From Prorocentrum cordatum (lineage: Eukaryota; Sar; Dinophyceae; Prorocentrales; Prorocentraceae): a stretch of 64,000 nucleotides of DNA. The position numbers and the translations under genes are program-made. The notes beneath the pieces were generated by a model that saw nothing but the letters and a program-made list of their open reading frames with translations, had not been told where the DNA came from and searched no databases. The stretch's first letter is position 1, and each line of letters begins with the position of its first letter. Positions 4,366-56,364 of this stretch are shown here, in pieces. The stretch is taken from positions 322,286 to 386,285 of the forward strand of contig CAUYUJ010014594.1 in NCBI GenBank assembly GCA_963575745.1, read 5' to 3'.

Positions 4366-6239
4366 AGTCGACCCGACCAGAAGAGACAAAGTGGCGTCTT
4401 TGGGTCGGTTTTCCTAAGATTTGAAAGATATTTGACCATTCATTTTGAGAAAGCAGATTCTTCGCACCTGTAATGGGTTATGCCGCGTCTGCCAGTCAAA
4501 TTCTTAGGTCTCTAGCTTCAATATTATTATCAAAACACTTGGAGGAACCGACTTTGGATGAAAACCAAAACAACGTGATTTTTCGAGTTTTTCGGCTCTC
4601 GCTTCAGAATAACTCGTAAAGTTTCCCTTAGCTAGTTGCTGGAAGCTTAAGAGTAATTCCGGGGCGCTGGAGACCTAGTTGGCAAGAAAAATCTCGACGG
4701 ACCTTTTGGTGACTTTGTCGGTTGAAAATTTTTCCCGAAATTCAACCATTCGTTTGAGCTCTAGTATTTTTTCCCGTGATATTCGATCGTATTCCCGCTC
4801 GCCGTCTTAATCTCAGCTCGATCGGGTAGATAGTACTGCCAAAAAGCACATTGGCGGGATCGGCCGTTTGGTGTCATCTTGACGTGCGTTGTCCATTTGT
4901 TGTACTTAACTCGAGCTGTAAGAGAGCTACAGAGCTGATACTTACAGAAACCGATTCAGAAACATCAGGCGCGCTCGTCTGTTGCATCCAGGAGGTCTGA
5001 ATTCGGTCTGCTGCCCGAGCTAGGTCCGCGGAACTATTCGTATTGTTCGAGTCATCTTGAGAGTTGCTGTTGGTTTTCCGTACTTAACTCGGGCTGTAGG
5101 GGGGCTACAGGGCTGGTAATTGCAGGAACCGATTCGGAGACATCAGGCGCGTCCGCCAGCCGCATGCAGAGGTCTGAAATCGGTCTGCTAATCGAGCTAG
5201 ATCCGCAAAACTATTCGTATCGCTCGGTCATCACGACAGGGACGGTCGGTCTTCTGCACTCAACTCGAGCTCTAGGGGAGCTACAGAGCTGATACGCACA
5301 GAAACCGATGCAGAATAATCAGGCGCGCTTGTCTGCTGCATCCATAGGTCTGAACTCGGTCTGCTACTCGAGCTAGGTCCGCGAAACTATTCGCATCGTT
5401 CGAATCATCTTGAGAGGTGCTGTCCGTTTTCGCACGTAACTCGGGCTGTAGAAGGGCTACAGAGTTTATACGCACAGAAACTGATTCAGAATCATCAGGC
5501 CCGTTCGTCTGTTGCATCCAGAGGTCTGAACTGGGTCTGCTACTCGGGCTAGGTCCGCAAAACTATTCGTATTCTTCGAGTCATCTTGACAGATGTTGTC
5601 CATTCTCTGTATTGAATTCGGGCTGTAGGAGAGCCACAGAGCTGGTACGCACAGAACCTGATGCAGAAGCATTTGGAGCGTTCGTCTGTTGCATCGAGAG
5701 GTCTGAACTCGGTCTGCTACCCGAGCTAGGTTCACAAAACTATTCGTATTCGACCGACATTTGTTCCTAATGATGGTGAATTTCTTCACTGAACTCGAGC
5801 TGCAGAGCAGCTCGAGAGCTCTTCGGCCGAAAAATCAAAAGGACATCATGAGGCGCGAAGCATCTAGACGCTTGGTTTGGGTCTGTTGCGAGCGCAGACG
5901 CCAAACACGGATTCGTACTCTGCTATTTTCTCCCTACTGGTATTTTCTACACGCTGCAGATGAGCTATAGAACTGTTCAGCACAGCAATGGCATATCACT
6001 AGACGCCTGAGATCAGTCTGCTATCAGCGCTCGGGCTGAAAAAACTATTCGTTCTGTGCTAATTGTTTGGACACAATATATGGTCAGGAAGCTCTACGAG
6101 TCCCCCGGCGGTAAGAAAGGTTGACGGTTTACCGCCGGCGCCCAGTTTTTCTTCATGTGTTCAGAGGAGCGCTGTGCAAGAAAGAGCTCTACGAGGTGCC
6201 CGGCAGTAACCTGGTTGACGGTTTACCGCCGGTTCCCAG
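4366..6239 (-). repeat. Beta element (reverse) split by a nested alpha
   Basis: Beta body in reverse (4366-4609) continues at 6146-6239, where its head hairpin ends in CCCAG followed by T. The alpha at 4610-6145 separates the two halves. The sister copy at about 35905-35930 shows the uninterrupted sequence, so this is a nested insertion. Confidence 0.8.
4610..6145 (-). mobile_element. Full-length alpha element (reverse), nested in beta
   Basis: Runs from TAACTCGTAAAG at 4610 to the head hairpin (arms CCGGCGGTAA and TTACCGCCGG) and CCCAG at 6145. The inverted subterminal repeats are near the two ends. The core is a run of about 177-bp satellite units (about 4880-5760) recognisable by TTCGAGTCATCTTGA and AGGTCTGAACTCGGTCTGCT. 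There is no coding sequence; short open frames are satellite translations. Confidence 0.8.
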
Positions 6240-10070: not shown

Positions 10071-10102
10071 CTGGGAACCGGCGGTAAACCGTCAACCTGG
10101 TT

Positions 10103-13100
10103 TGTTTGTTTGGACTCGCGTTCCCAGCTGAGTGCAGCTGGGCGAGGACCGGTCCCGCAGAAGCACACGGGCAGCGCTGAGCAGCGCTTCGGCTGCCGAC
10201 AATTCACATTATGTGACTGTAGCTCCTTCAAGGAGCCACGCGGCCTCGGCCACATCCCTCCAAACAGCAAACTCATGCCCAGCAGTGAAGGGGCCCATGG
10301 TTCTCGCGGAAGCGATGCCTATCTCACTGGGATTGCACTGAGTATTGATTAAGCCGATCTGAAGCCAGAAACCACATCCTGATCCTTGCTGGTCAACCCC
10401 GCCATCAAAGCCACCCCTGATAGCGAACGGTAAGAGATAAGTTTCGAATGGATATAGATAACAATGAGTTCTGTAGAATGTGCGGCCACATCTGGCCTCA
10501 TGCGTCAATTCATCCGCTCGTGTATTGTCCCCCCTGAATTCATGTCTCCATATCTCACGCCCCAAGGCAGCAGGCCTCAGATTGAAACACGCAGCGAGCT
10601 CAAAGGTACAATCAATCATGGCAGCTGTCCTCTTGCAGTAGCCACGATTCTCACATCTCCATTTCCCCTGTAGCCAGGAGCAGATAAGTAATGAGTCACC
10701 CTTGAACTCAGCAGCAAAACCCTCTGAGGATATATCCCACACAGTCGCACGTTCCTGGATCATAGCATAACGTATTGCAAGCTTGGCGGACTCTTTGGGG
10801 TCGTACTTGGGGTGCAGAGGGTTGGTCGCGATGTCGACCGCCTCAGTATCGGCCTTCTCTCGAGCCTCAGGGGAGCCTCGAGGTCCATTAGGAGAGCCCT
10901 TCCAAGACACCACAAAGTAATCATAGACCTTAGTTTTGTTGTATTGTGTAAGGAGTTGCTTCCATACCTCCAAGAACTGAACCCAATCGCCCCGCACAGA
11001 CTCCCACCACTTTTCCCCAAAGAACTGAATGTAGGGGAACTGCCAGGACCGACCGCCCACAGACACAGGGCCTCCACGAAGCCGCTTGCCCGAACTAGAT
11101 AAGGCCCTGTTGCCGTGTTGTCGTAGAACCTCTGTCATTGTGTCGCGAGCCGTGACCCAGCCAACATTGTACATCATAAGCGCACGTCGGGAGTCTCGAA
11201 AGGCCCTCCTCCCCTTTGAGACGGCAAGTGGCTCGCCTCTGAGAGCGTGGGCAGCTCCCTCTCCAGAGGGCATCGGCTGTGAGCGGGCAATGGAACAGGC
11301 AACCTGCGAGCAAAGATCCTCCAGCCGCCTCTCCATATCCGTAATCCCCCCCTCCACCTCCATCACAGTCGCTGCAGGTACATCCTCCCCCCGTCCATCC
11401 GCAAAGCGAACACGTTTAGCACGTTGAGTCGTTGATCCCTCCACCTCTACCTCCGTCCTTGCCGTCCTGTCCTCCTCCGAAGATAGTAAATATTGCCTCG
11501 TGGAGCGCATCATGCCCCAGCTCTTCCAACACAGCATCTGCAAAGCCGACGGGAAACCCCCAACGCAGAAGATTGTCCTGACTCGTGTCAGTGCAGCTGG
11601 CCGCCATACCTCCCACCCCACATCTCCTGGCTTCCTCCTCCCTGACATTCTCAGAAGACACATACCCTCGAACGCGTGGATAACCCTCACACACTCACTG
11701 TCAATCGTGAAGGCCTCTGCTGCATATAAAAGACGGCTCTGCACAGTCGATTGATATCGACGAAACTCCTTCACCAGAGGCAGCGCCCTGCACGTAAAAT
11801 ACTGCACCTGCGCAAAGAATGCCCTTCGGGCCTGCTGGACGCGCTCCTGCACATCCGTGTGGATAGAAGTGAAACTTCTGGGAATCTGATACCCCAGCAC
11901 ATTCAAACTCTCAACCTGCTTGAAAGGTACAGTCCGCGAGCCAATCTGAACCGTGACCGTATCAGTGTACTGAGTACCACACACCATCATCTCTAGACTC
12001 TCCTCCTTCCACTCCATCCCCCAATCCCTGAGAGCAGTAGTGAAGGCAGTGGCCGCTACCTGCGCCTCCGATGCTGACTTGGCGGCCAGAAAAATATTGT
12101 CAGCCCAGAGAGCATGATTCCAACGTGCATACCGACAATGATCATCATGGCATGGCATCTCGACTCCGACACCGCGCTGATCCAGGCGAGCAATCACATC
12201 ACGCCACATAGCAATAGTGACAATAGTGAACGCGATAGGTGATTCGGTACCCCCAGTACGGAGCGACCTATCCCACTGCACACTGGGGATTGTCACTCCT
12301 TCAAACAGCACCGTGCATGAAGTAGATGAGAGAGGCTCCAATAGCGCATACTGTAACCGTGCACTGATCCCAAGGGCCGTCATCGCTCTCGAGACTGTTG
12401 GCAACGTCACAGCATCGAACGCCCGCTCGATGTCACAGCTGAGGAGCCACGCCGTTTGATCTCGCCCCCATGTGGAAGCATGTTGTGTAATACATTTCAT
12501 GGCCGATGAAATCTCCCAGCAACGTCGTCCGCTAGTAAAACCGTAAACCGCCATATCACTCATGAAGGGTTCCACACATCGTTCCAACAAAATCGTCACA
12601 CACGTAAGATACCACTTGGCCAAGGTATTTCCGACAAGCAGGTTCCTCGTTTGTCGCAGTGTTTCTAGTTTGCTCGTTTTCGGCATAAGTGTTAGGTATA
12701 CTTCCTGCCATTCCCTTGGTGTCGGGCGAAGCCCGTTGAATATATCAGAGAAAACCTTACCAATAGCACGCACTGACCTCCACGAAAGAGACTTGAGAAG
12801 TTCAACCGAGATGCCGTCGGGCCCACAGGCCCGTCCTGTTCGGAGCCTGCTCCGCGCCTGCAGAATAGTAGAGTATGTAATCGTAAGTGTGTTGTCCGAA
12901 GAGGCTGTAGGTTGAGATGCATGGCGACGCAGTGTGGACACAAGCTCCCGATTGCGGGCTCTGGGGTCATCACAAGTCATACTCTGCACAGCATATCGCT
13001 CCACCTCCTCCGCCCACAGTTCCCTGTCCTCCGTCATCATAGTCGTAGGCCCCATATCCCCTCCCCCAGTGTCCGTCACCCTCAACTCCGTCACACGTGT

Positions 13101-22547: not shown

Positions 22548-22579
22548 CTGGGAGCCGGCGGTAAACCGTCAACCAGGTT

Positions 22580-23573
22580 TTTGCGGACTTTGCGGTCGAC
22601 TGTGCAGGCTTTCCAGCCTAGTCGGAAGCAAGGAGCGGACGCATCGGGAGTAGGCGGAAGCCTCACCGATCCAAACGATCAGAGGCGAAAGCCAACTCTT
22701 ATAAGGAGGATGAGAGGTCAAGCACACACACACGACAACAAAGGCATGGCGTGAGTGAGCACAATCAATATCACATCATGTCCTGTCCGAAATACGCTTG
22801 TACAACCCGCGGCAAGATTATAATCGCATGCTCAACGGCCGAGATCTCGGCATCAGTCACTGTTGAAGTTGGATCAATCGAGAACGCCGCACTATACACC
22901 TCCGTCCATATAAGATCATGGCTGAGCGGCTGCCTTGAGAGCCTCGATATCCGTCCAACATCTATCCAGCACCCGACTCCTACGCCGTCGCAAGAGACGC
23001 CACCATCGAATCCAGCTCTGATGGCACAAACGCGAAACACCTGTTGTAACTGAGGGGCGTAAAGCCCTATCCTATCTCGAATCACTGGTGGCCCGACACG
23101 GGCCGTATGAGCGAGTACATCTGCACGCGTGTTCCATTCCCTATATGTGTGGTCGACAATTTCCCTCCCATGACAGGCAGGCCTAATTCCAAACCTCTGA
23201 CACATGTTGTCAAGTTGGTTAATCATTCTGTTGGTCCTATCCTGATATGTACGATTAAGCACCCTCCAGACACCCTGAAGCCAAGACACCACCAGAAGAC
23301 TGTCCCCAGAAATGTACACAGGGATCCCAAATGAGTCGAGGTCGTACTCAACCCCCTTCATATTTTGTAACGCGATACGTTTGGCCAGTTTGTCGTTGAA
23401 AGCCGCAGTGCCCTCTTGAGCCCCATAAGTGTGTAGGTCGTTTTGTGTGATAGTATGTACCTCCTGCAGGGCCCCACCTGTTGTACCGTACCCTTGTCTT
23501 TTCTGAAAATAACTCGGCATCGTCTGTGTACACATGTGTTCGCAGAACTGAACATACGCAGCATCTGTCGGCG
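22580..23573 (-). mobile_element. LINE C: strongly 5'-truncated LINE with a 10-bp target duplication
   Basis: Flanked by perfect CAACCAGGTT duplications (22570-22579 and 23574-23583) in the beta hairpin loop. The tail complement is TTTGCGGACTTTGCGG, next to a stem-loop AGGCT-TTCC-AGCCT (22606-22619). Only the C-terminal coding part was copied. Confidence 0.9.
22771..23535 (-). CDS. LINE C fragment: permuted RNase H domain
   Basis: 254 codons, truncated at the 5' side by the insertion. It preserves the permuted RNase H order: GDSLLVVSWL (Asp 23302-23304), NTRADVLAH (Asp 23119-23121), FDGGVS (Asp 23005-23007), DAEISAVEHA (Glu 22846-22848). The acidic motif set is complete. A Met for independent translation exists but is probably chance. 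Confidence 0.8.
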   Translation of the reverse strand: MCTQTMPSYFQKRQGYGTTGGALQEVHTITQNDLHTYGAQEGTAAFNDKLAKRIALQNMKGVEYDLDSFGIPVYISGDSLLVVSWLQGVWRVLNRTYQDRTNRMINQLDNMCQRFGIRPACHGREIVDHTYREWNTRADVLAHTARVGPPVIRDRIGLYAPQLQQVFRVCAIRAGFDGGVSCDGVGVGCWIDVGRISRLSRQPLSHDLIWTEVYSAAFSIDPTSTVTDAEISAVEHAIIILPRVVQAYFGQDMM

Positions 23574-25401: not shown

Positions 25402-25487
25402 TTCCTCTTAGCTCTTTGCTGAAGAGCTCTACGAGGTACTTGGTAGCGTCCAAAACTGGAAACCGGCGGTAAACCGTCAACCAGGTT

Positions 25488-28437
25488 TTCGCGGGCTTTG
25501 CGGTGGGGTCCTCCAGCACATGCAAGCAGCGGTGCTCCCCGCGGCCACCAGGCGCAAGTGGCTCTACCGAGCGTGTGAGACGCTATCTATAACGGACGCA
25601 ATCTGCGAGATTGAGTGAATTAGCTTCGAGGCGGCCGTTAACTCACAGACCGTCACGGTTGACTCCCTATCGAGGCCAAACGCCTCTTCGGCAATCACGT
25701 GACACTGTATAGCATTTTTATGTTCTACAAAAGCCTGCAGCCACCAGCCTCCCCCAGCCCCAATATCCGAGGTGCCTCCGTCGAAGTAACCCCTCAATCC
25801 TAAAACTTTCGAAGTATATAAAGGGGCAAGATACTCGTTTCTCTTCGATGTGTGTGGGCAAGCTCTGCAAGCCCACGTGAGTTCATCAGCATAACTGTTA
25901 CCCTCCCTATAAAGATGCTTGATTGGGTCAGCCCCCGCACACGCAGTTCTCAAACAGGTGTCCGTTATACCATCAAGAGTGTTTGTGCCGCCTCCAAAGT
26001 GTTGTTATAGCCCATGTTCGTGCACCTCCAGTGCCCTCTTATCCATTGGACCACACACAAGCTGTCACCCAGTATTTCAAATGGAATCTTATCAGACTCA
26101 TAGTCAAAGATAGTCTCATTTTCAAAGTTATGAGCAATGCGACGCGCAATCCTATCATTATTAACTTTCGTCTCCTCCTCCTCCGTACGTACAACCGAAA
26201 CTCTAGGTTTGGCCAGATAGTCGAGAATGGCGGGCAGGTGCAATCTTTTGAGCAACTTCTCAACGAAAATCGACCAATCTTCTTTCCCAAACATCATAGT
26301 CTCCCACCACTTCGTATTGCCATTTTGATCAGCAATGAAGACATCTTCCCATTTTCTCCAACCGACGTATTTAGTCCCACCACGCCATCCAAGAAGAGCA
26401 GCCTGAGAATCCCTCGAGCGTGCAGCGAACGCGCGACGATGAGCGGCCCAGTCACCTGACGCATGCATCATGCCCAACCGCGCCTGAGAGTAGGCGTTGA
26501 GTTTGAAGACATTCACGTTTGCGCCAGAGGGTCGTGCCTCTCGCGGCTCACTATCATGATTAGAAGAGGGGGGGTCCCGTGGTCGCTTACTTCCCTGTGG
26601 GGCAGCAGACTGACTATCGGCGGAAGCGATGGGGTCATCATTCACCTGAGCAATACACCGTCTCTTTTGACTGCCCCTTGGCGAACATATTTCATCCCGA
26701 TCTCTTTTGTCGCATGGGCGTTGGGGCTGTCTGACACGCTTGGCGAGCTCCTCCTGGCTCGCAGTGAGACTCGGGCCAGGGCACCGCTTCTCTCCCCTGG
26801 CGGCCAGACGGGTCTCCACAATCTGCCTGCGACGATTCTTGGCCGCGGGCGTGGGTTCGCTCTCACCGTCGGCTGGGGGGGCTGTGGCCACAGGACTGAC
26901 AGTGCCTTGGGCTTCGCGCTGGCTGCTCCTTTCTTCCAGGAGCCTGGCGCACTCAAACAGATGCGCCACCTGCAGCGGATCACTCAAAGGAACTCTTATT
27001 CTGGACGCAGACGACACACGACCAGAAGAACAATGAGCATCCTTTTTGTTCGGCTCCAAAGAAACTCTTATACTGGACGCAGACGACACACGACCAGAAG
27101 AACGTTGACAATCTTTTTTGTGCTCCGTCAGTCCCCCACGGCTACCAAACATAGCCGCAGGTCTCTGGGGCTCAGGCGAAACACTCTGAGGCACAGCACG
27201 AGGCGGACAATGAGAATGAATGGAGTGTGTACTGTGTGTGTGCAGCGTAGCTGTCGGAATATAACAAGGCAACTGATCGAAAGAACTTCCTCTCTCAGCC
27301 TGCGGCACAGAAGACATCGAACGAAGGTGTGCATGCTCTCCACTGTTCGTGTGCAGCGTAGCTGTCTGAATATAACTGGGCAACGTGTCGAAGGAACGGT
27401 CATCAACCTGCGGCACAGGCAACAAAGAATGGACATGTGTTGTATCATCACTGTGAGTGTGCAGCGTAGCTGTCTGAATAAAGCTGGGCGCGGACTCCAA
27501 AGATCGTTGGCCAGACAACTGAGGCACAGGCAAAGAAGAATGGACATGTGTGTGAGCCTGACTGTACGTGTGCAGCGAAGCTGTCGGATCAACATGTACT
27601 CTGTCTGTGTGCAGCGTAGCTGTCGGGATATTTTGACACGCAAAGCCTCTGGCAAAGCAAGCAATATCTTTCGCCCAGAGCCAGTTCTTGTGAATGAAGA
27701 GTTCCACCGCCGACTGAAATCCAAGGTTGGCGAACTGGTCGCGAGCATACTTGAACCTCCTCTTTTGGTAGACCGTCCAATATTCAGTCACTCCTTTCCT
27801 CCTTCCTCCGATGATAGCTAATAGCTTTCCTTCCCAGGAGAATATTTTTTTGTGCCGTGATGTTGTCAATCGTCATCCCTTCAATTGCGAAAAGTAGCTT
27901 ACTCTGGATACGGAGTCGGTATCGCTGGAATCGTCTCTCAATCGGGATGCGATGACTTCTATAATATTCGATGTCGGCAAAGAAGGCACCACGGGCACGA
28001 TCCAAGTTGAATTGCAGATCGCTATGCTGTGTCCAATATCTGTCCAACCTGTAACCCAGGATGTCCAAAGTGTTAACGCATTCAAGTTTATACGTGTGGG
28101 TCTGGATATGAAGAACTACATCATTCGAGCCATTGACGCCAAAGGGGATGAGCTTGAGAGAGGATGGTTTCCAATTGAGGCCGGCCTGGAGCAGGGGGAG
28201 AGTGAGCTCAGTCACCATGGTCCTGAGCTGCCGTTCATCTCTAGCGTACAGCAACAAATTGTCCGCCCAGAGGGCATGTGAAATCGTCGATCTAGTGGGC
28301 ATGGGAACGGGGGACTCGACTACATAACCCAGATCACGCCCTGGCCAGGTCCCGACGATATCATTCCACAAGGCCACACTCACCACTTTGAATATGAATG
28401 GTCCGTCCACCCCGCCCGTCCTGATACTCCGATCCCA
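25488..28437 (-). mobile_element. LINE D: truncated, frameshifted LINE
   Basis: Inserted after CAACCAGGTT. Tail complement TTCGCGGGCTTTGCGG, then a stem with GGGG..AGCAC..GTGCT-CCCC (about 25505-25540). The 5' end is truncated in the RT palm (WDRSIRTGG). No target duplication is visible, and about 12 bp of host are missing at the 5' junction. Confidence 0.85.
25564..28437 (-). pseudogene. LINE D polyprotein with two frameshifts: RT, His-rich repeats, permuted RNase H
   Basis: Three frame segments. 28437 to about 27850 has RT motif B SIRTGGVDGP, motif C HALWADNLL (Asp 28261-28263) and the thumb. About 27850 to 25995 continues the thumb, then 4-5 imperfect repeats with QTATLHTHS and VHSLLPVPQ, then a linker and GDSLCVVQW (Asp 26064-26066). 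About 25995 to 25564 has SYADELT (25885-25887), FDGGTS (25780-25782) and CELTAAS (Glu 25642-25644). The first shift lies at an A7 run (minus strand) near 27850, consistent with one inserted A; the second lies near 25990. The RNase H order is again permuted. Confidence 0.85.
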
Positions 28438-40302: not shown

Positions 40303-42493
40303 CTGGGCGCCGGCGGTAAACCGTCAACCTTCGTTACCGCCGGGGGACTCGTAGAGCTTCCTGACAACATATAATGTCGAAAAAAAATTACACTGAAAAA
40401 ATAGTTTTTCAGCCCAAGCAATTTCAGACCTCTCCGATGTAACAGCCGAACGCCCCCGATGCTTCTGGATTGTCTTCTGTACGAGCTCTGTAGCTCTCCT
40501 ACAGCCCGAGTTACGTGCGTAAATCGACAGCACCTCTCAAGATGACTCGAACAAAAAACAAATAGTTTCGCAAACCTAGCTCGAGTATCAGACCGAGTTC
40601 AGACCTCTGCATGCGACAGGCGGACGCGTCTGATGTCTCTGAATCGATTCCTGTGATTACCAGCCCTGCAGCCCCCCTACAGCCCGAGTTAAGTGCAGGA
40701 AACCGACAGCACCTCTCAGGATGACTCGAAGAAGACAAATAGTTTCGCGAACCTAGTTCGGGCAGCAGACAGAGTTCGGAGCTCTGGATTCGAAAGGCGG
40801 ACGCACCTGATGTCTCCGAATCGATTCAAGTGATTACCAGCCATGCAGCCCCCCACAGCCCGAGTTGAGTGCAGAGAACCGACAGCATCTCTCAAGATGA
40901 CTCGAACAATACGAATAGTTTCGCGATTCTAGATCGGGCAGCAGACCGAGTTCAGAGCTCTGGATTCAACAGACAACGGCCACTGATGACTCTGAATCAG
41001 ATTCTGTACGTATCAGCTCTGAAGCTGTCCTGTAGCTCGAGTTAAGTACAGAAAGCCGAGAGCGCCTGTCAAGATGACTCGAATAATACGAACAGGTTTG
41101 CGGACCTAGCTCGGCTAGCAGACCAAGTTCAGACCTCTGGGTTCAACACGCGAACGCGGCTGATCATTCTGAATCGATGTGCTGTGTTTACCAGCTCTGT
41201 AGCTGTCCTAAAGCTCGAGTTACCTTGAGAAAACCGGCAGCGCGTGACAAGATGACCCGAAACGGCCGATCCCGCCTGGACGCTTTTTGGCAGTAAAAGG
41301 TACCCGATCGAGCTGAGATCAAGATGGCGAGCGGGAATAAGATCGAATATCACGGGAAAAATATCAGAGGCCTAACGAATGGTTGAATTCGAGAACAAAA
41401 TTTTCAACCGAGCAAAAGTCGTCAAAACTGGGCGCCGGCGGTAAACCGTCAACCTTTGTTACCGCCGGGGGACTCGTAGAGCTTCCTGACAACATATAAT
41501 GTCGAAACAAATTACACAAAAAATATTTTTCAGCCCAAGCAATTTCAAACCTCTCGGATGCAACACCCGAACGCCCCCGATGCTTCTGAATTGTCTTCTG
41601 TACGAGCTCTGCAGCTCTCCTACAGCCCGAGTTACGTGCGTAAATCGACAGCACCTGAATCGACAGCACCTCGACAGGCGGACGCGTCTCATTTTTCTGA
41701 ATCGATTCCTGTGATTACCAGCCCTGCAGCCCCCTCTACAGCCCGAGTTAAGTGCAGGAAACCGACAGCACCTCTCAGGATGACTCGAACAATACGAATA
41801 GTTTCGCAGACCTAGTTCGGGCAGTGGACAGAGTTCGGAGCTCTGGATTCAAAAGGCGGACGCGCCTGATGTCTCCGAATCGATTCCAGTGATTACCAGC
41901 CATGCAGCCACCCTACAGCCCGAGTTAAGTGCAGAGAACCGACAGCATCTCTTAAGATGACTCGAACAATACGAATAGTTTCGCGATTCTAGATCGGGCA
42001 GCAGACCGAGTTCAAAGCTCTGGATTCAACAGACAACGGCCACTGATGATTATGAATCAGATTATGTACGCATCAGCTCTGTAGTCCTATAGCTCGAGTT
42101 AAGTACAGAAAACCGAGAGCGTCTGTCAAGATGACTCGAATAATACAAATAGATTTGCGGACCTAGCTCGGCTAGCAGACCGAGTTCAGACCTCTGGATT
42201 CAACAGGCGAACGCGCCTGATTATTCTGAATAGATTAGCTGTGCTTACCAGCTCTGTGGCTGTCTTCTATCTCGAGTTAAGTCCAATATACCGATAGCGC
42301 CAGTCAAGATGACTCGAAATTGCCGATCCCGCCTTCACGCTTTTTGGCAGTAAAAGGTACCCGATCGAGCTGATATCAAGATGGCGAGCGGGAATAAGAT
42401 CGAATACACGGGCAAAAATACTAGAGCTCTAACGGATGGTTGAATTTTGAGAAATTTTCAACCGACCAAAATTCCTCAAAATGTCCGTCGAGA
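40303..42493 (+). repeat. Two head-to-tail alpha elements, right-truncated
   Basis: Heads at 40303 and 41428. The first stops at GTCAAAA, the second at GTCGAGA, each immediately before the next CTGGGCGCC. Satellites of about 177 bp fill both. No coding content. Confidence 0.75.
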
Positions 42494-46194: not shown

Positions 46195-46227
46195 CTGGGC
46201 GCCGGCGGTAAACCGTCAACCTTGGTT

Positions 46228-49200
46228 TTTTTTGCCTTTTGCGATCTGTCTAACGGCTGCCAAAAGCAGCCACAGTTCGTTTCTTCAGCCTAACCCTACG
46301 GGCGAAGTTACGGGTTACACTAAAGATGGCCTCGCAGAGGCTCGATAAAGCTTCGAATTCAGTGTTCATGGCAGAATATTGAGGGGGAAGGCCAAACGCC
46401 TTCGATTTGATCAGCACCCACTGTGGTCTATCCAGAAAGGCGAAGCTCCCATATATTGAATGAGATGCCGATGCTTTGATCAATCCCTCCAGCCACCAAC
46501 CTGCTCCTGCTTTATCCTTATCGACTCCACCGTCGAAAGCGCCCCGCAGGGCGTAGAGGTCATACTCCTGTAGCTCGTGAGTCCTATCATACTCTATATC
46601 TCTGATGCGTGCAATGTGAGTTAATTCATCAGCCCTCAGATTTCCCTCCCGATAGACATGCTTCCCTATGTCTCCTCCGACCGTGGCTCCGACAACGTTA
46701 AACTCCTCATGCAACTCGTGAAACTCATTTTGTATTTCGGCAATCTGTCTGGCATATGTTCGGTTGTGGATCTTCCACTCCCCGTTTAACCACTTAATCG
46801 TGGCCATGTTATCTCCCTGGATCTCCACTGGCAGCCCTCGTGCAATCCCCTGTTCGTACTCCCACCAGTCCGTCATCGTCGCGAAAACATGTGCGAGTCT
46901 CTTGGCCTGCTTTGTATTTTCCGCCCGTGTTGGTGCCTCCTCCTCCTCCCAAGTGTTAGGTCCCACCCGTTTTTCTTTCTCCTGCTTAAAATGTCGATCG
47001 AATGCAAGTCCCGTCCTCTGTTTGATATGTTCAATCCATGCTTTCCGCGTCTCCTCATCATGTGTCAAGTGTTTCCAATACTCATCTCCCCGAAAACTTT
47101 CAAATGTAGCGTGCCATGATGTCTGGCCTATTGCCTGGCAATCAATCCTCCGTCGTTTTTCTGACACCTCTGGGTTCTTCCAATTTTTACTCAGCACCCT
47201 GATCGCTTCATTGTACAAATCACGTCTCTCTGTCCAACGTTTCATACCATGGAACATCGCCAACCTCGCAGTCATGAAACTGTGGCACACACTTGATGAT
47301 TCTCGCCAAGCTCCACAACTCTGTTGACTGCCAACCGCATCTGTCGCGATGTCCGCCGTCTTCAAGAACGAGCAACAATCCTTATTCCACTCCCATTGTT
47401 TTTGCAAGTACAACTCTACCAGGCTGGGATGTTTTTCACGAAATTTCTCCCTGGCAAAGTTATAGGCTCTGACATTGAAGCTGAACCATGATTCATCAAT
47501 CCTTTTTCGTACACCAACTATTTTTATCAAGCAACGCCCCTCAAACTTATGAATATCCTGCAATGCCGATTTGTCGATACTCGATCCTTCAACGCTATAC
47601 AAGAAAGTGCTCTGTACTTTGCTCACATACTTCTCCCATTTCACCGTCCACGGGACCGACCGACATCGATACAAGCTCATGTCTTGAAAGAACGCATGCT
47701 GAGCTTTCTGGATCCGATACTGCACATCCAAGTGCGTCCTCATTCGAGTGTGCAGCCGCACACCCAGAAAAGTAATCTCCTGCACTCGCGGAACGAAGAG
47801 TGTCTCCACCAAGCCGGTGGACGCGCCAGCACCCGCATGCTCAGACAATTCGCGCACACTGCAAGCTGAGGCAACAGGCTGCACACTACAAGCTGAGGCA
47901 ACAGGCACTCTTATCCACGACGACGAAGACACACGAGAATGAAGAGAATCCGTTTTTGCAGGCAACTGCGAAAGAACAACAGGCACTCTCATTAACGACG
48001 ACGAAGGCACATGAGAGTGAACATCTGGCACTGACATTGGCAAATGTGCATAAGAAAACGTCGTTGGTGCTGTCTCAGTGCAGAGATCGGGCACCGTGAT
48101 GGCTGTCACGGAGTCTGCGCTTGAAGCCTTTTGGCCGGGTATATTTCTATTCAGCGTAGCTGTCTGATATGTCTGTTCAGCGTAGCTGTCGGATATGTTG
48201 CTCAGCGTAGCTGTCGGATATGTCGAATGAAGATGTGATTGCGGCTCTGCCAACTGTGAATGAAGAAGTGATTGTGACACTGGCATAGAAGGATGAGGAA
48301 GCGGTGTATGTCCTGTCAACGGGGTTACTCTCGCAGCTGAATCCAAAGATGTGATCTCTGATCTCTGTCTTTTCGGTCCTTGCTCAAAAGATTTGGTCGG
48401 GATTGGGATCTCCAACGCCTCTGCCTCAAAGTCAACTCCAAACGTCGCTAACTCAATCGAACTGGGCTTCCACTCGAAGCCCCATTCTCGTATCGATATC
48501 GTAAGTTCCTGCATCATCGTGGAAATCATCTTATTACCCTCCTGTCGATCACCTTGGGCAAAGATGAAAAAGTTATCCGCCCATATCGCATGACTGAGAC
48601 TCTGATGGACCTCCATCTCCTGGGAGCCTTCGATCGTGCGAGAACTGGCTCCAACTTTTGCCTCGATCGAATCTGCATACGCCCTCGGTCTCTCGATGTT
48701 GTATCCGAGGCCTCTCTCTTTCCACGAGTGTATCGTCGGGGCAATCATCGCAATCGTGACAAGCACAAATAAGATGGGGCTCTCAACTCCTCCCGTCCTA
48801 ACACAGGTGTCCCACGGCACTGTCTCGCACTGGGTACTCTGGAAATTTGCCGACGCCGTGTTTCTCAGCATCGGCTCCAAGATAGCATACTGAAAAGAAG
48901 AAGGAACCCCCAGCACTCTCATTGCTCTCACACATGTCGTAAGTCGAAGGTGATCGTACGCTTTCAGAATATCACAACTGCAGAGCCAAAAGCTCTGTCC
49001 CTTCCCCCAAATCGAGGCATGTTTACCGATATGTTTAATCATCGAAGTGACCTCCGTCGTTTTCCTCCCAGACATAAACCCATATACATTCATCTCGGGA
49101 TCCAAGTTTTTGGCCAGGAACCTCTCCAGGACCACAACCAGGGAAAGCGAATACCACTTAGTTAAGCATGAAGAGACTGCAATCGCTCTGGTATCCTCCA

Positions 49201-50525
49201 AACTCGTAATCTTCTCACTCTTGGGAATGAGCGTGAGTATTATCTTGCGCCAGTCCTCTGGCGTCGGCTCCCGTCCCTCATATATGGCCGAAAACGTCTT
49301 AAATATCTCCTGAAGGTTCCCGAAGCCTAGAGTCTTCAGCATGCTAACCGTGATCCCGTCCTCCCCCGTCTGCTTGCCCACCGACAGTCTGGATCTGGCA
49401 TTCATCATCGCACTAAAGTCGAAAGTCAACCTGACGGTGTCCGTGTGGGCCTGGTCCCTGAGCTCCTCCATCACCTCCTCCGTCTCCCTCCTGATGTGCT
49501 CATTCGTAAACTTCCCCTTGGTATGCTCATACAGTGCCGAACTCCATTTTGTTTGATCCTCCTCCATCCTCCCATTGATGTTTAACTTAGTGATCATCTC
49601 GGTCCTGGTTTTCTTCTTTGATCTGCTGGCATACTTAAGCATGGCACACTTTAGGACATTCTTTTCCTTTCGCAACTGTCGGTTTATTTCTTTCCTCTCC
49701 TCCTCGTCCTCCCATTGTTTCAACCTTTTGGCTCTTTCCAGGGCTTTGTGTTTCTCTGACTTCTGAGGAACCTCTCGAATCATCTGCTTCGTCGGGATCC
49801 CCTCCGCCGCGCCTAGCATCACCTCGGACAACTTACCTGGTGGCACGTAGTCTCCCTCCCCCCGCTCCGTCACTAACCTGTCGTAGTTCTGGGCTGAGAA
49901 CAATCTGCGGCCTGGCTCGGTCTCTGGCTCCCATTTGGGGTGTACGGGTCGTCTCATTTTTACTCTCGGGGCCGGGCGGATCGATACGGGCAACTCCAGC
50001 AACACCGCTGCATGGTCCGACGTCTCATTACCTGTGTCCCTGACGTCCTGCCACTGTACTCGAGCTTCCCCCCACCACGCCGGAGCAAGAATATAATCGA
50101 GCACCTGCGGTACCTTTTGTGCACGAGTAAAATGCGCTGGAAGCCTTTCCCGAAACGTGTTCGACACCACAAGGTCCAGCTCAACAATAAGGTCGACTAG
50201 GGCTTCACGCATCCTCCTTTTCCTCCTCGCCCTCTCCGTCTCGAAGCCTCCCACCGCCTGTCCCACCTGCAAGTCCGTACGTACACCTCCTCCAGTGACC
50301 TCCTTTCCTCCTTCACCCCGTACATGTGCAGGCAACTCAACATTCGCATCTGTCAAGATGGCCACCTCAAAGTCTTTCCCCCCTTCTTGCTCAAACTGCA
50401 TACGTGCTGCCTGAATCTTCGACCTCACCAAGTTGGCTAGGGCATTGAACTCTGCCACCGCATTCCTTCTCCCCTCATGTGGAAAGTAGGCCGAGACAAC
50501 GATGATTTTGCCGACTACGATGAGC
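46228..50525 (-). mobile_element. LINE E: young LINE in an alpha hairpin loop, 12-bp target duplication
   Basis: Flanked by perfect TCAACCTTGGTT duplications (46216-46227 and 50526-50537). Tail complement TTTTTTGCCTTTTGCG; a stem-loop GGCTGC-CAAAA-GCAGCC at 46255-46271 overlaps the last codons. The 5' end is truncated within the endonuclease. The perfect duplication and open frame point to a recent insertion. Confidence 0.92.
46250..50525 (-). CDS. LINE E polyprotein (5'-truncated): endonuclease, RT, permuted RNase H
   Basis: A single open frame from the 5' junction to TAG at 46250, about 1,420 codons. The partial APE endonuclease has VVSAYFP, LTDANVELP, LDYILAP and SDHAAV. RT: GEDGITVSMLK, YGFMSGRK, motif A SCDILKAYD, motif B VRTGGVESP, motif C HAIWADNFF (Asp 48575-48577), then a Ser/His/Pro-rich insertion (about 47800-48340) before motif E TFLGVRL. 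RNase H-like: QGDNMATIKW (Asp 46811-46813), YREGNLRADELT (46628-46630), FDGGVDKD (46532-46534), NTEFEALSS (Glu 46358-46360). The N-terminus is missing, so the copy is probably immobile, but the catalytic part shows no damage. Confidence 0.9.
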
Positions 50526-51700
50526 TCAACCTTGGTTACCGCCGGGGGACTCGTAGAGCTTCCTGACAGTATATAGTGTGGACAAAAACTCCAAAGAACG
50601 ACTAGTTTTTCAGCCCAAGCGATTTCAGACTCTCAAGATGACTCTAACCAAAAAACAAACAGTTTCGCAACCCAGTTCGAGTATCGAACCGAGTTCAGAC
50701 CTCTGAATGCGACAGGCGGGCGCGTCTGATGTCTGCGAATCCACTCATGTGATTCCCAGCCCTGCAGCTCCCCTACAGCCCGAGTTAAGTGCAGAAAACC
50801 TACAGTATCGCCTCGAATAATAGAATAGCTTCGCGGACCTAGTGCGAGCAGCAGACCGAGTTCCGAGCTCTGGAATCGACCAACAGACGCGCCTGATGTG
50901 TGCAAATCGATATCTGTGACCCGCAGCACTGTAGCCCTCCCCCAGCACGAGTTGAGTGCAGAAAATTGAGAGCACTTCTCAAGATGACTGATGATTCCCC
51001 ATCGATGTCTGTGACAATGAGCCCTGTAGCTGCCCTACAGCTCAGTACAGAAAACCGAGAGTGCCTGTCAAGACGACTCGAATAATACGAATAGGTTTGC
51101 GGACCTAGCTCGGCTAGCAGACCGAGTTCAGACCTCTGGATTCAACAGCCGAACGCGCCTGATAATTCTGAATGCGATAGGTGTGCTTACCAGCTCTGTA
51201 GCTGCACTACAGCTCGAGTTAAGTACAGAAAACCGAGAGCGTCTGTCAAGACGACTCGAATAATACGAATAGGTTTGCAGGCCTAGCTCGGCTAGCAGAC
51301 CGAGTTCAGAACTCTGGATTGAACAGGCGAACGCGCCTGATAATTCTGAATGCGATAGGTGTGCTTACCAGCTCTGTAGCTGCCCTACAGCTCGAGTTAA
51401 GTACAAAATACCGACAACGCGTATCAAGATGACTCGAAACGGCCGATCCCGCCAGTGTGCTTTTTGGCAGTAAAAGGTACCCGATCGAGCTGAGATCAAG
51501 ATGGCGAGCGGGAATAAGATCGAATAGCACGGAAAGAAATACTAGAGCACAAACGACTTGTTGAATTTCGCGAACAAAATTTTCAACCGACTAAAAGTTG
51601 TGAGAAGTTCAGTTTTTTTTTTTCGAGCCAACTGGCTCTCCAGCGCGCCGGAATTACTCTTAAGCTTCCAGCAACTAGCTTGGGGAAGCTCTACGAGTCA

Positions 51701-54826: not shown

Positions 54827-56364
54827 CTGGGCGCCGGCGGTAAACCGTCAACCTTGGTTACCGCCGGGGAACTCGTAGAGCTTCCAAGCTCGACTTAAGT
54901 TGAGAAAACCGAGAGCACCTACCAACATTCTGACTAATAGTGAATATTTTTTGACCTCTGAATGCGACAAGCAGACGCGTCTGATCAGACCGAGTTCAGT
55001 CCTCTCAATGCGACAGACGGACGCGTCTGATGTCTGCGAATCGACTCATGTGATTACCAGCAGACCTGTTTCGAGCAGCAGACCAAGTTCTGAGCTCTCG
55101 AATCGACCAACGAACGCGCCTGATGCAAATCGATTTCTATGAACCCGCAGCACTGTAGCCCTCCCCCAGCACGAGTTGAGTGCAGAAAATTGAGAGCACT
55201 TTTCACGATGATTCGGACAATACGAATAGTTTCGCGAACCTAGCTCGGGCAGCAGGCCGAGCTCTCGATACAACAGACAAATGCGCCCGATAATTCTCAA
55301 TCGATTTCTGTGACTGTAGGCTCTGTAGCTGCCTACAGCTCGAGTTAAGTACAGAAAATACCGAGAGCGCTTCTCAAGATGACTCGAATAATACGAATAG
55401 ATTTGCGGACCTAGCTCGGCTAGCAGACCGAGTTCGGACCTCTGGAGTCAAGAGGCGAACGCACCTGATGATTCTGAGTGCGATAGGTGTGCTTACCAGC
55501 ACGGTAGCTGCCCTGCAGCTCGAATTAAGTATAAAATACCCACCACGCGTATCAAGTTGACTCGAATAATACGAATAGGTTTCCGAACCTAGCTCGGCTA
55601 GCAGACCGAGTTCAGACCTATGGATTGGACAGGCGAACGCGCCTGATGATTCTGAGTGCGATAGGCGTGCTTACCAGCACTGTAGCTGCCCTACAGCTCG
55701 AGTTAAGTAGAAAATACCGACAACGCGTATCAAGTTGACTCGAATAATACGAATAGGTTTGCGGACCTAGCTCGGCCAGCAGACCGAGTTCAGACCTAGG
55801 GATTCAACAGGCGAACGCGCCTGATTATTCTGAGTGCGATAGGTGTGCTTACCAGCACTGTAGCTGCCCTACAGCTCGAGTTAAGTAGGAAATACCGACA
55901 ACGCGTATCAAGTTGACTCGAATGATACGAATAGGTTTGCAGACCTAGCTCGGCTAGCAGACCGAGTTCAGACCTATGGATTCAACAGGCGAACGCGGCG
56001 GATTATTATGAGTGCGATAGCTGTGCTTACCAGCTCTCTAGCTGTCCTACAGCTCGAGTTAAGTACAAAATGCCGACAACGCGTATCAAGATGACTCGAA
56101 ACGGCCGATCCCGCCAGTGTGCTTTTTGGCAGTAAAAGATACCCGATCGAGCTGAGATCAAGATGGCGAGCGGGAATAAGATCGAATATCACGGGGAAAA
56201 ATACTAGAGCTCTAACGAATGTTCAAATTTTGAGAACATAATTTTCAACCGACCAAAAGTTGTGAAAAGTTCAGTTCTTTTTTTTCGAGCCAACTAGCTC
56301 TCCAGCGCGCCAGAATTACTCTTAGCTTCCAGCTATAACTAGCTAAGGGAAGCTCTACGAGTTA
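54827..56364 (+). mobile_element. Full-length alpha element
   Basis: CTGGGCGCC at 54827 to GAGTTA at 56364, 1,538 bp, close in length to the reverse copy at 4610. It contains a run of satellites (55020-56090), including several nearly identical units with ATTCTGAGTGCGATAGGTGT, which suggests recent local amplification. Confidence 0.8.

Follow-up and report, generated by a model that had tools for sequence, protein, structure and literature searches.

A putative naturally permuted, archaea-like RNase H at the C-terminus of LINEs from the dinoflagellate Prorocentrum cordatum

Four LINE copies and the order of their active-site residues

The window analysed here, a stretch of 64,000 nucleotides from contig CAUYUJ010014594.1 of the dinoflagellate Prorocentrum cordatum (positions 322,286 to 386,285), carries four long interspersed nuclear elements (LINEs), B, C, D and E, on its minus strand. 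The protein of LINE E combines endonuclease-like motifs, a reverse transcriptase (RT) and a C-terminal domain that has counterparts in the other three copies, with pairwise identities of 30–43%. This C-terminal domain carries the active-site residues of RNase H in an altered order, and its parts in the four elements are located as follows.

46250..50632, minus strand: LINE E open frame, 1460 amino acids (aa), with endonuclease-like motifs, RT and C-terminal putative permuted RNase H
48461..49228, minus strand: LINE E RT core, aa 469-724 (Pfam RVT_1, E-value 8e-10)
46544..46837, minus strand: LINE E putative permuted RNase H, first half, comprising β4 (GDN), two helices, β5 and αE (ADEL), with the archaea-like Arg
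46253..46543, minus strand: LINE E putative permuted RNase H, second half, comprising β1 (FDGG), β2, β3 and αA; low base of the Glu codon at 46358
10203..10721, minus strand: LINE B putative permuted RNase H, extending to the helix-A Glu of the alignment (10203-10205), downstream of an in-frame stop at 10209-10211
22774..23328, minus strand: LINE C putative permuted RNase H, in an uninterrupted reading frame
25564..26087, minus strand: LINE D putative permuted RNase H, in two reading frames, with a frameshift between GDS and ADEL

The catalytic residues of LINEs B, C, D and E run in the order Asp(β4), Asp(αE), Asp(β1), Glu(αA), and the LINE E protein terminates just after αA. A preliminary description of this DNA had proposed that GDS/GDN, ADEL, FDGG and a Glu follow one another in each copy. 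The order GD[NS], R..N.RAD, FDGG, Glu holds in all four, in LINE B by way of a different Glu, and all 16 of the codons that had been listed encode the residue named (each coordinate being the lowest plus-strand base of the codon). The Glu placed at 10272 in LINE B had been misassigned, as it belongs to WRDVAEAA, which aligns with the strand-3 region of the other copies; its true equivalent lies in CELSA, at 10203-10205, just past the TAA stop at 10209-10211. A relative of LINE B with an intact domain exists despite this in-frame stop. With the Glu corrected, the spacing between successive motifs in residues is 61/36/67 in LINE B, compared with 61/32/58 in E and 61/38/53 in C. The domain of LINE D was read as two pieces owing to its frameshift, which falls between the first two motifs, and its spacing of about 60/35/46 is derived from coordinates. 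Four copies that have diverged this far share the permuted order, which supports the earlier suggestion that the arrangement is ancestral and not damage.

No canonical DGG...E pair was found upstream of the GDS motif in the E and B frames or among 12 aligned upstream regions, a result in line with the preliminary description. DG[GSA] occurs once in each of the open frames of LINEs E and B, and this sole occurrence is the one following the AD motif. Across the 12 upstream regions, 7 of which reach at least 100 residues, no column attains 80% conservation of Asp or Glu; an upstream FDGG is present in one database relative, P0007, and is unique to it among the 12.

Relatives of the domain were sought in a protein database. 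Single-sequence searching matched none of 851 candidates, while a profile built from LINEs E, B and C retrieved 23 proteins at an E-value of at most 1, of which 21 fall at or below 1e-3, and a second profile listed 15 proteins, five of them new relative to the first search. One of the relatives, P0008, is from a dinoflagellate and is named Prorocentrum cordatum. Eight further matches (P0005, P0010, P0018, P0019, P0022, P0023, P0027 and P0028) come from a Pyramimonas sp. transcriptome in EukProt; five of these fragments are 83-93% identical to LINE B or C and three are 44-45% identical. Contamination, shared origin or transfer may each account for the Pyramimonas matches. The remaining matches sit on contigs of 506 to 2,066 bases, apart from P0025 (10,275).

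Conservation was assessed in 22 rows, in which 19 of the 23 matches were aligned with three window copies (P0020-P0023 and LINE D being left out), and gaps were excluded from the column counts. The rows are not all independent because several are close to window copies (P0001 is 92% identical to C, P0002 90% to E and P0004 92% to B). The active-site columns are Asp of β4 in 12/13, Arg in 18/20, Asp of αE in 20/20, Asp of β1 in 22/22 and Glu of αA in 20/20, and all five residues of an archaea-like type I RNase H (Asp, Glu, Asp, Arg, Asp) are therefore present. The sole exception at the β4 Asp is P0008, which has Tyr there. The presence of the motif order in four divergent copies, together with the retention of the active-site columns in 22 rows, confirms that order and conservation exceed chance.

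Predicted fold and similarity to canonical RNase HI

Structure prediction, which had also been proposed for this domain, returned the permuted order of elements: AlphaFold models of LINEs E and C, which are about 30% identical, both run β4…β5-αE-β1-β2-β3-αA, each with a predicted template modelling score (pTM) of 0.83. The linker between αE and β1 spans 12 residues in the model of E and 19 in that of C. The linear order of type I RNase H, β1-β2-β3-αA-β4-...-β5-αE, was found neither in the sequence nor in the two models, and we therefore class the domain as a permuted variant that would work like RNase H rather than as a plain member of the type.

Matches to established families fall in the first half of the domain. 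Within the 123 positions of Pfam RVT_3, LINE E matches 62-119 and LINE C 63-122, with scores of 16.9 and 15.1 bits that lie under the gathering score of 21.6; RVT_3 is matched by 6 of 11 full-length members and shows no match to the domain of LINE B. Residues 1269-1342 of LINE E match positions 71-133 of 143 of the NCBIfam model RNAseHI_Thmprot (E-value 0.0014, far under the cut-off). When the second profile was searched against the PDB, the five best matches were all RNase HI, namely LC11-RNase H1 twice (E-values 0.0018 and 0.0089), Sulfolobus tokodaii twice and Halobacterium (0.08 to 0.21). Alignment by HHalign of the first half with a canonical RNase HI profile of 84 sequences (80 loci and four others) gave a probability of 97.8% and a score of 73.4, compared with 21.2 for the best of 200 column shuffles. 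Judged by these profile comparisons, the first half of the LINE domain (β4-αE) is homologous to the second half of canonical RNase H. A permutation would go some way towards explaining why profiles that depend on order recognise half of an RNase H, and no more, in these LINEs.

Interpretation and alternative explanations

We consider it highly likely that the C-terminus of these LINEs is a naturally circularly permuted, archaea-like type I RNase H, ancestral to this LINE group, that would remove template RNA after reverse transcription. Fusion of the native termini would have linked αE to β1, with the chain reopened between αA and β4; the permuted chain would run through β4, two helices, β5, αE, the linker and β1-β2-β3-αA and end soon after, with the catalytic set Asp(β4), Arg, Asp(αE), Asp(β1), Glu(αA) retained in its new order. 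By analogy, the most likely substrate of the domain is the template RNA within the RNA/DNA hybrid coming from the adjacent RT, and its cleavage may be placed behind the RT during target-primed reverse transcription, as proposed for other retrotransposon RNases H. The swap would have arisen once, ahead of the divergence of these LINE families, probably through tandem duplication of a whole RNase H, after which the outer halves were lost; the sequences examined included no duplicated intermediate. It is probable, on balance, that this natural permuted RNase H, perhaps the first to be described, became fixed in the ancestor of LINEs that form a group found in one dinoflagellate at least (Prorocentrum cordatum), and that it stayed active while the copies diverged to about 30% identity, next to an unusual RT with WADN as its catalytic motif.

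Several results weigh against a permuted RNase H, most of them concerning the second half of the domain. A hidden Markov model of the canonical first half detects none of 24 proteins, and HHalign with a second half taken from a smaller alignment aligned short pieces only. With 22 second halves the HHalign score was 14.9, a value reached by 10/300 column shuffles, and in a larger run the score was reached by 136/2000 shuffles and is not significant. The models of E and C were built from overlapping alignments, and a second alignment underlay the register test described next. For two other HHalign targets, the score of the second half was reached by 9/300 and 24/300 shuffles.

In the register test, the FDGG Asp aligns with the Asp of canonical β1 and the Glu with that of canonical αA; the two coincide together in 0/2000 shuffles, while 35/2000 match the Asp and 26/2000 the Glu singly. 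When 11 full-length sequences were un-permuted, the LC11 match rose from 20.2 to 24.3 bits and began earlier, at chain residue 51 instead of 71, within helix A; among the Pfam matches listed, none became longer. Rotation of the profile, with the second half placed before the first, gave a modest rise in best local score, from 61.6 to 64.8 with four archaeal-type sequences and from 50.1 to 55.5 against eleven canonical sequences. Sequence evidence for the second half is weak when judged by score and good when judged by register.

Four other explanations were weighed against these observations. A domain with the permuted RNase H fold that is catalytically dead, acting as an RNA/DNA hybrid binder or a spacer, is unlikely: the activity of the domain is a prediction and P0008 has Tyr for the β4 Asp, yet five active-site columns are conserved between copies that are 30-43% identical. 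Improbable as well is a separate origin of the two halves, in which a degenerate RNase H remnant would be joined to an unrelated FDGG/Glu domain that resembles β1-αA by chance. The failure of profile scores to detect the second half speaks for such a composite, whereas the co-conservation of the halves (Asp 22/22, Glu 20/20), the register result of 0/2000 and the supply of the missing β1-β2-β3-αA by both models, at a whole-chain pTM of 0.83, speak against it.

The permutation might also be only apparent, if halves were swapped between two molecules or if a second RNase H segment lay elsewhere in the element. We regard this as very unlikely, for although the models are single-chain, in both of them that one chain provides every element, and the E and B frames contain no DG[GSA] besides that of the permuted domain. 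Reordering of segments by assembly error or element damage is scarcely credible, since the order is common to four divergent copies and to proteins from other sources, despite the stop in LINE B and the frameshift in LINE D within the domain.

A circularly permuted RNase H, if true, would mean that the RNase H fold can be permuted in nature at the αA/β4 junction and remain catalytic. It would also be a rare character for tracing LINE evolution, marking a clade of elements, and it makes a testable statement about the new N-terminus that links the RNase H to the RT.

Other parts of the elements and comparison with known systems

The RT is of LINE type, with Pfam RVT_1 matches of 8e-10 in LINE E and 2.4e-13 in LINE B. 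The usual RT motif is [FY]xDD. Three RT copies, those returned by the RT motif scan, instead carry WADN, in which the second catalytic Asp is Asn (LINE E 48592, D 28278 and B 12116, minus strand, first base of the motif match). LINE E also has endonuclease-like motifs, TDAN at 95, LDY at 178 and SDH at 205, which may be those of an APE-like endonuclease; the Pfam scan of LINEs E and B gave no endonuclease match. Between the RT and the C-terminal region, LINE E has an insertion at 47804-48379 on the minus strand (aa 751-944), about 190 residues without counterpart in copy B, and the DNA there holds tandem repeats of 25-27 bases.

All four LINEs share a 20-mer, GGTTGACGGTTTACCGCCGG, 28 to 196 bases past the stop.

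46202..46221, minus strand: 3' tail motif of LINE E, 28 bases past the stop
10078..10097, minus strand: 3' tail motif of LINE B
22555..22574, minus strand: 3' tail motif of LINE C
25463..25482, minus strand: 3' tail motif of LINE D

With up to 3 mismatches, GGTTGACGGTTTACCGCCGG occurs 46 times in the window (41 minus, 5 plus), where 0 are expected. Conservation of the copies declines past CCAGT, which for this reason looks like the 3' terminus of the elements. These data suggest a shared 3' recognition end without poly-A that is also used by short elements. Many copies share a different upstream arm, CCGGCGGTAA, able in principle to pair with TTACCGCCGG, which suggests short non-autonomous partners using the same enzyme. 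Taken by themselves, the four LINE tails show no clear advantage in folding over shuffled sequences (z 0.35 to -1.62). The window also contains many tandem arrays whose period is close to 177 bases (4873-5746, 40480-41262, 55323-56100 and others).

Human L1 is not known to have an RNase H domain. The closest solved RT to that of LINE E is from LINE-1 ORF2p (8c8j, 8uw3; E-value 1.3e-6). The nearest parallel to the present elements is found in L1 elements of plants (Ta11) and oomycetes; in the passages of the source covered, their RT proteins carry a C-terminal RNase H of archaea-like type whose active site contains Arg, as here (PMC5348765). In those elements, according to the same passages, the RNase H is preceded by a CCHC motif (PMC5348765), whereas simple patterns found none in LINE E or B. 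Replacement of His by Arg is given as the mark of archaea-like RNase H in the covered part of PMC4640811, which also describes Utopia non-LTR elements of oomycetes, where an archaea-like RNase H likewise occurs, but upstream of the RT. No word beginning with "permut" appears in the main text of either paper, or in that of a survey of the RNase H-like superfamily (PMC3985635). Among the open-access literature matches listed, titles and opening parts of abstracts contain no description of a permuted RNase H in LINEs; dinoflagellate LINEs are already known (PMC5890265), and a permuted RNase H is unmentioned in the passages of that paper covered.

Cellular RNase HI, represented by LC11-RNase H1 (3u3g, 4h8k) and the enzymes of Sulfolobus tokodaii (3aly, 2ehg) and Halobacterium (4e19), is homologous to the LINE domain in the β4-αE half, with identities of 22-29% over 75-82 residues in the structural rows. 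Its active-site residues follow the order D-E-D-R-D, in contrast to D-R-D-D-E in the putatively permuted LINE domain. Circular permutants of E. coli RNase HI have reportedly been engineered as laboratory constructs, which would show that the termini can in principle be joined. Few folds have been studied as much as that of RNase H, and a natural permutant with its catalytic residues retained would be the evolutionary version of such a protein-engineering experiment.
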